From Alphaproteobacteria bacterium (GTDB lineage Bacteria; Pseudomonadota; Alphaproteobacteria; Sphingomonadales; Kordiimonadaceae): a DNA stretch of 33,508 nt. The stretch covers positions 1 to 33,508 of the forward strand of contig JAJFIU010000056.1 in assembly GCA_021774695.1 (NCBI GenBank). Reading direction: 5' to 3'. Made by a program: the position numbers and the translations under genes. Under the pieces are notes generated by a model, which was not told the DNA's origin, ran no database searches, and saw only the letters and a program-made list of their open reading frames with translations. Position 1 is the first letter of the stretch. Each line of letters opens with the position of its first letter. This document shows positions 23,498 through 27,409 of the stretch, in pieces.

Positions 23498-23950
23498 ATG
23501 AAAATCTTCATACCTTTTTTGACTTTGTTTATGGCTTTAGGCACGCCTACATATGCCAGCGATAAAGAAGAAATTATGGCAGTAGACCAAGCCTTTAACG
23601 ACATGGCAGCGCGAGTGGGAAACCGGGCTGCCTTCGCGCATTATCTGGCAGTGGATGCGGTCAAACTTGATGGAGGGGCCCATCCCCGGTACGGCCACAG
23701 CGCCATTTTACCGACTTTGGATGAACTGTCGCCGAACGTGAGCCTAACCTGGACACCGCGAGACGGGAAAGTCGCAGCCTCGGGCGACCTTGGTTTTACC
23801 TGGGGCACCTATGTGTTGCGACGGGTGGACGGCGATGAAGCCAGACTTAGCTACGGCAAATACACAACCATTTGGGAAAAACGCGGCGGTGTGTGGAAAG
23901 CAACACTCGACATGGGCAACCCAAGCCCCGGACCCTATCCAACCGACTAA
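23498..23950 (+). CDS. Secreted NTF2/SnoaL-like (DUF4440-type) small protein
   Basis: A 150-residue product with a Sec signal peptide (MKIF, hydrophobic core, cleavage near TYA-SD at about residue 20). The mature part resembles the NTF2-like cone fold of DUF4440 proteins: an N-terminal helix AVDQAFNDMAARVGNRAAF, then the beta sheet with GDLGFTWGTYVLRR and the closing KYTTIWEKRGGVWKATLDMG. Many such proteins bind small ligands or act as accessory subunits; no catalytic residues can be assigned. A strong GGAGG ribosome binding site precedes the ATG. It stands alone between two minus-strand operons; a link to either is not evident. An imperfect AGGCTG/CAGCCT hairpin (23967-23979) lies between it and the convergent maiA. 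Confidence 0.75.
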   Translation: MKIFIPFLTLFMALGTPTYASDKEEIMAVDQAFNDMAARVGNRAAFAHYLAVDAVKLDGGAHPRYGHSAILPTLDELSPNVSLTWTPRDGKVAASGDLGFTWGTYVLRRVDGDEARLSYGKYTTIWEKRGGVWKATLDMGNPSPGPYPTD

Positions 23951-23990: not shown

Positions 23991-24635
23991 CTACAGAGCT
24001 GGAGCATCCGGTTGTTGCTCTGGCGCGGCGAAGCGGAACGCATCCAGCGCGTTGCAAGCTGCGTCGATCCGGACAATTTCGGGAAAGGCTTCAAGCGGGG
24101 TTTCATACCGGCGGGCATTATAAAGCTGTGGCACGAGATAAACGTCAGCTAACGTCACTGTATCACCAAAGCAATAAGTTCCGGCTGTGTCAGTAATTAG
24201 GGTTTCAAAAGCAGAAAAGCCTTCCGTAACCCAATGTCGGACCCAGTCAGAAGCAGCATCTGTGTCTGCACCGAACTCGCCTTTAAGGCGTTGTAGTACA
24301 GAAAGATTTTGCAGCGGATGGATATCACAACCGATCAGGCTGGCAAGTTGGCGTACTACAGCGCGGTCCACAGCTCCCTTGGGCAACAACGGAACATCAG
24401 AATATGTCTCCTCCAGATACTCCAATATGGCCGGCGACTGACTGATCGCAACATCGCCGTCGGTAAAAAACGGCACCCTGCCCTGCGGGTTTACCGCAAG
24501 ATACTCGCCACTTTTTTGCTCGCTGATGCCCGGCTTCAGATTGACCGCGATATTCTCATATTCGAGCCCCTTTAATGCCAGCGCAATCCGCACCCGGTAG
24601 GCCGCGGACGACCTGAAATATCCATATAATTTCAC
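23991..24635 (-). CDS. maiA: Maleylacetoacetate isomerase (zeta-class GST)
   Basis: The 214-residue glutathione-dependent enzyme converts 4-maleylacetoacetate to 4-fumarylacetoacetate. The N-terminal thioredoxin-like domain has the zeta-class signature FRSSAAYRVRIALALKGL (Ser-Ser pair at about residues 9-10) and the glutathione-binding NPQGRVPFF and ISQSPAILEYLEE. The C-terminal helical domain includes LIGCDIHPLQNLSVLQRLKG and GDTVTLADVYLVPQLYNARR. The zeta motif and its position beside fahA and hpd make the call firm. It is the last gene of the tyrosine operon, 3 bases after fahA. Confidence 0.95.
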   Translation of the reverse strand: MKLYGYFRSSAAYRVRIALALKGLEYENIAVNLKPGISEQKSGEYLAVNPQGRVPFFTDGDVAISQSPAILEYLEETYSDVPLLPKGAVDRAVVRQLASLIGCDIHPLQNLSVLQRLKGEFGADTDAASDWVRHWVTEGFSAFETLITDTAGTYCFGDTVTLADVYLVPQLYNARRYETPLEAFPEIVRIDAACNALDAFRFAAPEQQPDAPAL

Positions 24636-24638
24636 GGC

Positions 24639-25646
24639 TTAGCCCTGCACTACAGTTTGGTCGATAGCGCCAAAAATTGATTTGCCGTTGTCGTCAAGCA
24701 TCTCGATACGGACCTGGTCACCAAACTGCATAAACGGTGTTGACGGCGCGCCCTCCTCGATTGTTTCGATCATGCGAATTTCCGCGATACAGCTATAACC
24801 AACGCCGCCTTCGGACACAGGTTTGCCCGGTCCATCGTTCAGTTTATTAGAAACTGTACCGGAGCCAATCACTGCGCCTGCACCCAAAGGCCGCGACTTA
24901 GCGGCGTGGGCAATCAACTGGGAAAAATCAAAGGTCATATCAACACCGGAATCCGGCTTGCCGAACATGCCGCCATTCAGATGTGACAGCAAAGGACCAT
25001 GCAATTTATTATCGTGCCAAGCAGAGCCCAATTCTTCAGGTGTTACGCACACCGGGCTGAAAGCGCTGGATGGTTTGGACTGAAAGAAGCCGAAACCTTT
25101 GCCCAACTCGCCGGGTATCAGGCCGCGCAGCGATACATCGTTAACCAGCATCACTAGTTTGATATGGTTACCGGCCTGGTCGGCTGCCACAGCCATTGGC
25201 ACATCGTCGGTAATAACCGCGATTTCCGCTTCAAAATCCACACCCCATCCGTCGGTTTGTGGCACGGCGATGTCACCGTGGGGGTCAAGGAACGTGTCCG
25301 AACCGCCCTGATACATCAACGGATCGGTCCAGAAAGATGCGGGCATCTCAGCACCGCGGGCCCGGCGTACAAGTTCAACATGATTGACGTATGCAGAGCC
25401 GTCTGCCCACTGAAACGCTCGCGGCAGTGGCGATGCGCAGTCGGCCTCAACAAACGCATGTCCTTCGATTGCGCCTGAATTGAGCGATTCGTATAAACCC
25501 CGCAACCGCGGCATTGTCGCATTCCAGTCATCAAGCGCAGATTGGAGTGTCGGCGCTATGCCAGTGGCTTCAGTCATCCGGCTCAGGTCCCGGGACACCA
25601 CAATAAGTTTGCCGTCACGGCCATGTTTTAACGAAGCAAGTTTCAT
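24639..25646 (-). CDS. fahA: Fumarylacetoacetase (FAH family)
   Basis: A 335-residue metal-dependent hydrolase that splits fumarylacetoacetate into fumarate and acetoacetate, the last step of tyrosine degradation. The catalytic domain has VDFEAEIAVITDDVP (metal-binding glutamates), LVMLVNDVSLRGLIPGELGK, FGFFQSKPSSAFSPV, and the closing LGAGAVIGSGTVSN and CIAEIRMIETIEEG. The length matches the short bacterial form rather than the 420-residue eukaryotic one. The ATG at 25646 has an AGGA ribosome binding site; a TTG six codons upstream is not needed. It is 3 bases from maiA and 58 bases from the VOC gene. That gap holds an AT-rich palindrome, so a second promoter here is possible. Confidence 0.93.
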   Translation of the reverse strand: MKLASLKHGRDGKLIVVSRDLSRMTEATGIAPTLQSALDDWNATMPRLRGLYESLNSGAIEGHAFVEADCASPLPRAFQWADGSAYVNHVELVRRARGAEMPASFWTDPLMYQGGSDTFLDPHGDIAVPQTDGWGVDFEAEIAVITDDVPMAVAADQAGNHIKLVMLVNDVSLRGLIPGELGKGFGFFQSKPSSAFSPVCVTPEELGSAWHDNKLHGPLLSHLNGGMFGKPDSGVDMTFDFSQLIAHAAKSRPLGAGAVIGSGTVSNKLNDGPGKPVSEGGVGYSCIAEIRMIETIEEGAPSTPFMQFGDQVRIEMLDDNGKSIFGAIDQTVVQG

Positions 25647-25662
25647 AAATATCCTATAAATC

Positions 25663-25682
25663 AATTAGTTATATAACTTATT
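25663..25682. promoter_or_regulatory. AT-rich palindrome upstream of fahA, resembling the marR operator
   Basis: AATTAGTTAT followed directly by ATAACTTATT forms a 20-base dyad with one mismatched pair. The inner AGTTATATAACT is a perfect 12-base palindrome. The TTAGTT half-site recurs in the larger palindrome between hpd and marR (27486-27507). It lies 16 bases upstream of the fahA start, so it may allow the MarR regulator to control the second half of the operon. Confidence 0.45.
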
Positions 25683-25704: not shown

Positions 25705-26256
25705 CTAGTCTTCGGGCTTCGCCGGAAACTCGCCGTCGCCGTGCAGCCAAGCGGCGTGCTTTGGCGCTTTTTTAGTGCGCGCCCATTCTTCCAGCATAGC
25801 CGGAGCGACGCGCTTCAGTTCCTCCAGCATACCGGGTTTAGCGGTATTTGCCGCGAGCTCAAGCCGATGGCCGTTAGGGTCAAAAAAGTAGATTGACTTG
25901 AATATCGTGTGCTCGGTTGGACCAAGAACCTCAATGCCAGCCGCTGTCAGGCGTTCTTTGGCCGCCAGAAGCGCATCCATGTCTTCTACTTCAAAAGCAA
26001 TATGCTGAACCCATTCCGGCGTATTCCTGTCCCGGTCCATGTCTTCCTGGTTTGGCAATTCAAAAAACGCCAACACGTTGCCGTTCCCGGCATCCAGAAA
26101 CAGATGCATATAGGGGTCGGGTTCTCCGGTAGAAGGTACCTCGTCTTCGGCAATGGCCAGCATGAAATCCATATTCAGGTGTTTCTGGTAAAACTCTACC
26201 GTTTCCTTGGCATCGTTACACCGATACGCCACATGGTGAATGCGTTTCAAATCCAT
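25705..26256 (-). CDS. VOC-fold metalloprotein in the tyrosine operon; candidate ring-cleaving dioxygenase
   Basis: The 183-residue protein has two beta-alpha-beta modules of the VOC (glyoxalase/extradiol dioxygenase) superfamily. Candidate metal ligands are His8 (KRIHHVAYRC), His85 (WVQHIAFEVEDMD) and Glu133 (FFDPNGHRLEL). Glu66 (VLAFFEL) is at the place used as a fourth ligand in glyoxalase I. Residues 114-133 (TEH, then IY, then DPNG and E) fit the PROSITE extradiol-dioxygenase pattern as I recall it, with His116 and Tyr123 at the catalytic positions. The gene lies between hpd and fahA, where homogentisate dioxygenase is often found and is absent here. Replacement of HmgA is therefore possible, but a glyoxalase-like or detoxifying role is equally open. 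The C-terminal ~45 residues are Lys/Glu-rich and outside the fold. Confidence 0.8.
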   Translation of the reverse strand: MDLKRIHHVAYRCNDAKETVEFYQKHLNMDFMLAIAEDEVPSTGEPDPYMHLFLDAGNGNVLAFFELPNQEDMDRDRNTPEWVQHIAFEVEDMDALLAAKERLTAAGIEVLGPTEHTIFKSIYFFDPNGHRLELAANTAKPGMLEELKRVAPAMLEEWARTKKAPKHAAWLHGDGEFPAKPED

Positions 26257-26320: not shown

Positions 26321-27409
26321 TCAAGCAGCATCTTCTTTATTCCCAACCACGCCGCGCGCTATCTGATCACGCTCTATAGATTCGAACAGTGCTTTAAAAT
26401 TGCCCTCGCCGAACCCTTCATCCTTTTTGCGTTGAATAAACTCAAAGAATATAGGTCCTATTTGCGTATCAGAGAAAATTTGCAGCAACAAACGCGGATC
26501 GCCGTCCTCGGTTGATCCGTCCAACAATATGCCCCGAGACTGCAGCTGGTCAACTGGTTCGCCGTGGCCCGGCAACCGCTCGTCCAGCATTGCGTAATAT
26601 GTTTCTGGCGGCGCTGTCATAAACGGTACACCGCGTGCTTTTAAGCGGTCCCAGCACTCGATAAGATTATCACAGGAAAAAGCAATATGTTGGATGCCCT
26701 CGCCGTTATATTGCATCAAATATTCTTCAATTTGGCCGCTACCGCCACCTGATTCTTCATTAAGTGGAATGCGGATCAATCCGTCAGGAGCAGTCATAGC
26801 GCGGGACAGCAGGCCTGTATATTCTCCCTTGATGTCGAAATACCGAATTTCGCGGAAGTTGAAAAATGTTTCGTAAAATGTGGACCAATAGTCCATCCGC
26901 CCGCGGTAAACATTGTGGGTCAGGTGATCAATCATTTTAAAGCCGCAGCCTACAGGATGGCGATCAACGCCCTCCAACCATTCAAAATCGATGTCGTAAA
27001 TCGATTGGCCTTCCTCAAACCGATCGATCAAATACAACATTGCGCCGCCAATGCCCTTTATGGCGGGCAACTTGAGCTCCATGGGGCCTGTCGGCACATC
27101 AACCGGCTGAGCACCCAAATCAAGCGCGCGCGCATATGCAAGGCCTGCGTCCTTGACCCGAAACGCCATCCCAGACGCGCACGGACCATGCTCTTCGGCG
27201 AAATAGGCGGCAGGTGATTTGGGCTCATAATTGGTGATAAAATTTATGTCGCCCTGGCGCCAAAGATCCACGTCTTTCGAGCGATGGCGCGCAACTAACG
27301 TGAAACCCATCATTTCAAAAACTGGTTCAAGCAAGCCTTTTTCCGCCGCTGCAAATTCGACAAACTCGAACCCACACAGGCCCATCGGGTTATCAAATAA
27401 ATCTGCCAT
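26321..27409 (-). CDS. hpd: 4-Hydroxyphenylpyruvate dioxygenase
   Basis: This Fe(II) enzyme converts 4-hydroxyphenylpyruvate to homogentisate. The 362 residues form two VOC-type halves. The iron ligands are His162 ([12 protein letters not shown]), His241 ([13 protein letters not shown]) and Glu323 ([20 protein letters not shown]), all at the numbering expected for the Pseudomonas-type enzyme (161/240/322). The C-terminal [15 protein letters not shown] is the gate helix typical of HPPD. The ATG at 27409 follows a TTTGGAG ribosome binding site. It is first in the operon hpd-VOC-fahA-maiA and diverges from a marR gene. A perfect palindrome in the shared intergenic region is the probable control site. 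Confidence 0.97.

Follow-up and report, generated by a model that had tools for sequence, protein, structure and literature searches.

A single-domain VOC protein as the probable homogentisate 1,2-dioxygenase of a bacterial tyrosine operon

The VOC-fold protein of 183 aa encoded at positions 25705-26256 (minus strand) is, judging from its sequence and that of its relatives, very probably a single-domain homogentisate 1,2-dioxygenase that replaces the cupin enzyme HmgA. Its gene lies in a stretch of 33,508 nucleotides (hereafter the window), one contig (C124) of an assembly that comprises 3.80 Mb in 172 contigs and is 90.7% complete. A non-orthologous replacement of homogentisate dioxygenase had been suggested in the initial annotation, and it gains support from the title of crystal structure PDB 9u42, from the occurrence of the VOC type largely in genomes without either of two cupin forms, from gene order, and from conserved residues of extradiol type. 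Many other bacteria seem to use the same VOC enzyme in place of cupin HmgA.

A VOC gene within the tyrosine operon

The operon is transcribed from the minus strand in the order hpd, VOC gene, FAH-family hydrolase, maiA. The homogentisate-forming 4-hydroxyphenylpyruvate dioxygenase gene hpd (26321-27409) is identified by TIGR01263 (389 bits against a cut-off of 277), and the maleylacetoacetate isomerase gene maiA (23991-24635) by TIGR01262 (277 bits against a cut-off of 171). The hydrolase between the VOC gene and maiA (24639-25664) is of the PF18288/PF01557 type; no NCBIfam equivalog scored above its cut-off, so its fumarylacetoacetase role is assigned from Pfam and genomic context. An internal ATG six codons in may be its true start. 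The VOC gene is an open reading frame lying, as first described, between hpd and fahA, and its start codon is directly preceded by a purine-rich stretch that by eye resembles a ribosome-binding site. A MarR-family regulator (PF12802/PF01047; 27518-27982, plus strand) is divergent from the operon, and MarR-type homologues adjoin the operon in many of the relatives whose neighbourhoods were compared. At the other end, a DUF4440 protein is encoded next to maiA (23498-23950, plus strand). The observation that this tyrosine operon lacks a cupin HmgA extends to the whole assembly (90.7% complete), where PF04209 was likewise not found.

Gene neighbourhoods were compared at 80 named loci, the best 80 of the 492 named VOC loci in a GTDB scan, with neighbours counted by their BLAST labels. 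At 41 loci hpd was found no more than 5 kb from the VOC gene, at 57 a fumarylacetoacetase gene of either subtype, and at 67 at least one of the two, while cupin HmgA was found at a single locus (1/80). Nine of the 80, some of them on short contigs, had none of the genes sought within this distance. At 46 of the 80 loci the hydrolase next to the VOC gene is a homologue of the window's PF18288 type, and at 11 of a TIGR01266 type; the TIGR01266 reference, from Ramlibacter (L077), scored 507 bits. Linkage to two subtypes of fumarylacetoacetase argues that the product of the VOC enzyme feeds the fumarylacetoacetase step. A setting that speaks against the dioxygenase reading was seen at four loci of family f8 (L018, L020, L021, L022): the VOC gene adjoins what by eye resembles a penicillin-binding-protein gene, or is one gene away from it, and the tyrosine genes are not in this neighbourhood.

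Sequence features and known homologues of the VOC protein

Pfam detects only generic glyoxalase families in the VOC protein (best PF00903, 71.7 bits), and the Pfam scan did not find the HgmA_C domain (PF04209). None of the 25 NCBIfam families among the matches listed came near its cut-off (the best reached 41.6 bits where 171 are required); glyoxalase I (TIGR00068) reached 27 bits against a cut-off of 120 and catechol 2,3-dioxygenase (TIGR03211) 40 bits against 320. Similarity to the FosB, glyoxalase and epimerase families is weak. That to hpd is marginal (E 0.003 over 28 residues), and we therefore make no claim that the VOC gene arose by hpd duplication.

Residues 114-133 (TEHTIFKSIYFFDPNGHRLE; 25858-25917, minus strand) fit PS00082, the extradiol dioxygenase signature. 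This match, already pointed out in the initial annotation, is unique among stop-free matches in the six frames of the window, arose in 7 of 200,000 shuffles of the protein, and is kept in all 48 sequences of an alignment of relatives (A2) that includes the window's own protein. Invariant throughout the same alignment (48/48) are His8, Glu66 and His85, together with His116, Tyr123 and Glu133 of the signature. His85, His116, Tyr123 and Glu133 align with residues 214, 246, 255 and 265 of catechol 2,3-dioxygenase (PDB 1mpy), which are ligand or second-sphere positions in that enzyme; the alignment covers all proposed triad and second-sphere residues except His8. The earlier proposal that His8, His85 and Glu133 form a 2-His-1-carboxylate triad is consistent with this invariance and with the alignment of the latter two, and the roles given to these residues are putative. 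The invariant Glu66, at what would be the fourth-ligand position of glyoxalase, is more glyoxalase-like than extradiol-like and counts against the dioxygenase reading.

An AlphaFold2 model of the protein (mean pLDDT 89.4) retrieved PDB 9u42 as its first Foldseek match (E 2.1e-24, 65% identity), the next match having 28% identity. This entry, released on 2025-07-23, is titled "Crystal Structure of Homogentisate 1,2-Dioxygenase from Acinetobacter in Complex with Zn ion". Its chain 9u42_A is also the best PDB sequence match (E 3.9e-73), and the chain table names it merely "Glyoxalase". The 182-aa chain shares 65% identity with the window protein over 169 columns, superposes on the predicted model with TM scores of 0.81/0.88, and has the same residues at positions 8, 66, 85, 116, 123 and 133. 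It differs in that it was crystallized with Zn rather than Fe and belongs to another part of the family tree; the comparison was made by title and sequence alignment. Searches outside the subscription literature found no paper on the 9u42 protein. Its depositors had already given the homogentisate dioxygenase function to a close homologue, so the window protein joins a kind that has been deposited before, which reduces the surprise.

A tree of 130 rows separates the 121 rows of the VOC family proper, 9u42 among them, from a sister subfamily with support of 100/100. The window protein falls in a set of 19 rows, one pair of which is identical, all linked to hpd (support 87/91, below the starred level). 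PDB 9u42 belongs to a mixed set of 44 rows (96/94), in which 17 rows are linked to the monooxygenase, 14 to FAH and two to hpd. The window protein is therefore a 9u42 homologue whose tyrosine context is arguably the clearer one. Members of the sister subfamily (L149-L157) share 43-47% identity with the window protein, and some of their genes adjoin an FAD monooxygenase gene. Asp replaces Glu66 in all nine sister sequences printed; the extradiol-type signature is kept in all nine, which were picked partly by that motif. Taken alone, the sister subfamily is not significantly associated with a lack of HmgA (p = 0.17).

Other known enzymes are more distant. L-DOPA dioxygenase (PDB 6on3; Foldseek rank 18) is likewise a small one-domain VOC ring-cleaving enzyme, but it shares only 16-18% identity with the VOC protein and acts on a catechol-type substrate. 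Catechol 2,3-dioxygenase (1mpy) and HpaD align through their C-terminal domain, with metal-ligand and second-sphere positions matched, but are two-domain enzymes, and the VOC protein lies far below the family cut-off. PcpA and LinE are two-domain VOC hydroquinone 1,2-dioxygenases that cleave para-hydroquinones beside a substituent, which is the kind of chemistry that the proposed step would need; neither was named among the displayed sequence-search matches of the VOC protein. Cupin HmgA of either form (PF04209/TIGR01015) has the same predicted reaction and the same place in the operon. It differs in having open frames of ~430 aa or more (long form) or about 376-385 aa (short form), and its fold is unrelated to the VOC fold.

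Published work on Acinetobacter touches on the same step. The hmg cluster of A. baumannii AB4353 is described as having a gene for a type I ring-cleaving dioxygenase and no hmgA homologue, and its describers inferred that this gene was only distantly homologous and that its product lacked dioxygenase activity (Fonseca et al., 2020; PMC7646211). We liken this gene to that of the window by its published description, not by sequence. The same source relates brown pigment (pyomelanin) to homogentisate that stays uncleaved. In a pyomelanin-producing A. baumannii, a gene called hmgA is interrupted, and supplying the gene abolishes the pigment (Zhao et al., 2022; PMC9431530); because the passages do not identify which protein this hmgA encodes, the finding is not taken as proof here. 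Nor is the insertion decisive that PMC11945678 describes upstream of a fumarylacetoacetase gene.

Distribution of the VOC type and the two cupin forms

In family f1, to which the window belongs, the VOC gene is present in 28 of 29 genomes, the window's own included; the sole exception (G009) is 76% complete. PF04209 HmgA was found in none of the 29, again including the window's own assembly. A class sample of 212 genomes, in which VOC genes were called above 250 bits and hpd above the TIGR01263 cut-off, contains 16 with the VOC gene; all 16 carry hpd and two carry PF04209. In a phylum sample of 347 genomes the VOC gene, called at a score of at least 296 bits (the next group reached at most 185 bits), is present in 43, of which 39 carry hpd. 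PF04209 is absent from 14 of the 16 VOC-carrying genomes of the class sample versus 18 of the 62 with hpd and no VOC gene (present in 44; p = 3e-5), and among hpd-carrying genomes of the phylum sample it is present in 11 of the 39 that have the VOC gene versus 107 of the 143 that do not (p = 2.4e-7). These Fisher p values disregard phylogeny; the genomes, being related, are not independent observations, and some of them occur in both samples.

Beyond these samples, the genomes of 50 of the 80 best named loci were searched. Among them, 48 carry hpd, six carry PF04209, and 43 carry hpd without PF04209, including species of Alteromonas, Psychrosphaera, Microbulbifer, Massilia, Duganella, Comamonas, Maricaulis and Novosphingobium. 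As evidence against replacement, PF04209 occurs alongside the VOC gene in 12 of the 43 VOC genomes of the phylum sample, two of these matches being weak (G464, 112 bits; G447, a 61-position fragment). The survey of VOC genomes for hmgA that had been proposed at the outset, once run, places the long cupin in a minority of them, and with none found in the window's own assembly the refuting outcome named there did not occur.

The 18 genomes of the class sample with hpd and neither VOC gene nor PF04209 were considered as plain counter-examples to replacement and rejected as such, ten of their hpd neighbourhoods holding a short cupin HmgA gene, in one case cut off by the contig end. PF04209 misses or barely detects this short form, and the two proteins scanned (376 and 385 aa) scored 93 and 80 bits with TIGR01015 against a cut-off of 511. 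Its profile matches homogentisate dioxygenases in the PDB, and its genes lie near hpd, fah or maiA (L112, L114, L116, L117, L119, L120, L121, L124, L126, L030). Automatic annotation may miss it.

A model built from an alignment of ten short cupin HmgA sequences (A3) was run on 80 genomes, 18 without and 62 with the VOC gene. The former, which have hpd and no PF04209, were picked from 53 such genomes in the class and phylum samples, and four of them had supplied sequences to the model; it finds a short cupin HmgA in 15 of the 18, with a weaker score in G461 (217 bits). The latter, which also lack PF04209, were picked from 85 genomes of the family, class and named sets, with the order relatives and all other phylum-sample genomes set aside, and none of the 62 yielded a short cupin HmgA. 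Thus, the VOC type and the short cupin occurred together in none of the genomes tested with A3, and the VOC type excludes the long cupin in most genomes. One genome of family f8 (G041) has a VOC gene together with a short HmgA gene, the latter beside fah and maiA (L030). Three genomes (G044, G331 and G467) carry hpd yet lack all three homogentisate dioxygenase types tested; the hpd neighbourhoods of two of them were compared (L111, L158), and the sister VOC subfamily is present in G331 and G467.

Reaction, alternative readings and significance

In the proposed pathway, Hpd would make homogentisate and the VOC enzyme would cleave its ring between the carbon that carries the carboxymethyl group and the hydroxyl-bearing carbon next to it, yielding maleylacetoacetate, after which MaiA and then the FAH-family hydrolase would finish the pathway. 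A metal, most likely Fe(II), may be held by His8, His85 and Glu133 and would bind a homogentisate hydroxyl and O2, while Tyr123 and His116 would have second-sphere roles like those in catechol 2,3-dioxygenase. Glu66 could be either a fourth ligand or an acid-base residue. More speculatively, and we would rather bet against it, the one-domain VOC class may keep Glu66 as fourth ligand or main acid-base residue, in a 2-His-2-carboxylate ring cleavage unlike that of known extradiol enzymes.

The protein might instead be a ring-cleaving dioxygenase that works by the same mechanism but acts mainly on another hydroquinone, for example one made by the flavin monooxygenase encoded beside it in many relatives, with homogentisate as a secondary substrate. 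We regard this as improbable for the window protein, which sits among the 19 exclusively hpd-linked rows of the tree and in an assembly that has HmgA of neither type. The idea draws on the 23 of 120 labelled family rows in which the VOC gene adjoins a homologue of the PRK08132-type FAD monooxygenase (NF006002 was matched by the three members scanned); such an arrangement is found at L130, L131, L132, L134, L136, L137, L141, L142, L143 and L145. It draws also on six of the 12 phylum-sample genomes with both the VOC gene and PF04209, where the VOC gene adjoins such a homologue (G412, G440, G491, G536, G545, G551). Four phylum-sample genomes have the VOC gene and no hpd: G455, G472 and G481 have the monooxygenase homologue next door, with fumarylacetoacetase also near in G472 and G481, and in G447 neither gene was found within the 9 kb fetched. 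HmgA lies in the same cluster as the VOC gene at L130-L133, and HmgA or fumarylacetoacetase is near at some of the monooxygenase-linked loci, the latter pointing to homogentisate there too. The monooxygenase-linked copies likely serve a pathway in which homogentisate is produced from a different aromatic compound, such as 3-hydroxyphenylacetate, but action on a different hydroquinone is possible.

An auxiliary role, in which the protein is a glyoxalase, epimerase or quinone-rescue enzyme and an undetected dioxygenase cleaves homogentisate, would account for the presumed fourth-ligand position of Glu66, the weak family similarities noted above, and the coexistence of PF04209 in 12 of 43 phylum-sample VOC genomes. 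It is a very improbable reading given the 9u42 title, the largely separate occurrence of the VOC type and the two cupin types, and the 43 of 50 named genomes with hpd and no PF04209 match. Least credible of all is that the VOC gene is incidental and that hmgA sits in the missing part of an assembly that is 90.7% complete and split into 172 contigs. The initial annotation had allowed that hmgA may lie elsewhere; the assembly, at this completeness, contains neither the long form nor, by A3, the short one, and we rejected a copy hidden in unassembled DNA, as two same-genus relatives (G008 and G013, each 100% complete and in one contig) also lack both HmgA types.

With a single-domain VOC homogentisate dioxygenase as the preferred reading, a textbook pathway now appears to have three enzyme types for one of its steps, two of them cupin forms and the third a VOC form. 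Beyond 9u42, the analysis adds how broad the replacement is, that a second cupin form is poorly detected, and that a curated model is missing. As the VOC protein matches no NCBIfam family above cut-off and only generic Pfam families, genomes with the VOC type look as if their tyrosine breakdown ends at homogentisate. Correct naming of this type would improve pathway predictions and bears on pyomelanin phenotypes, and the enzyme is a small and tractable example of oxygen chemistry apparently carried out at a glyoxalase-like site.
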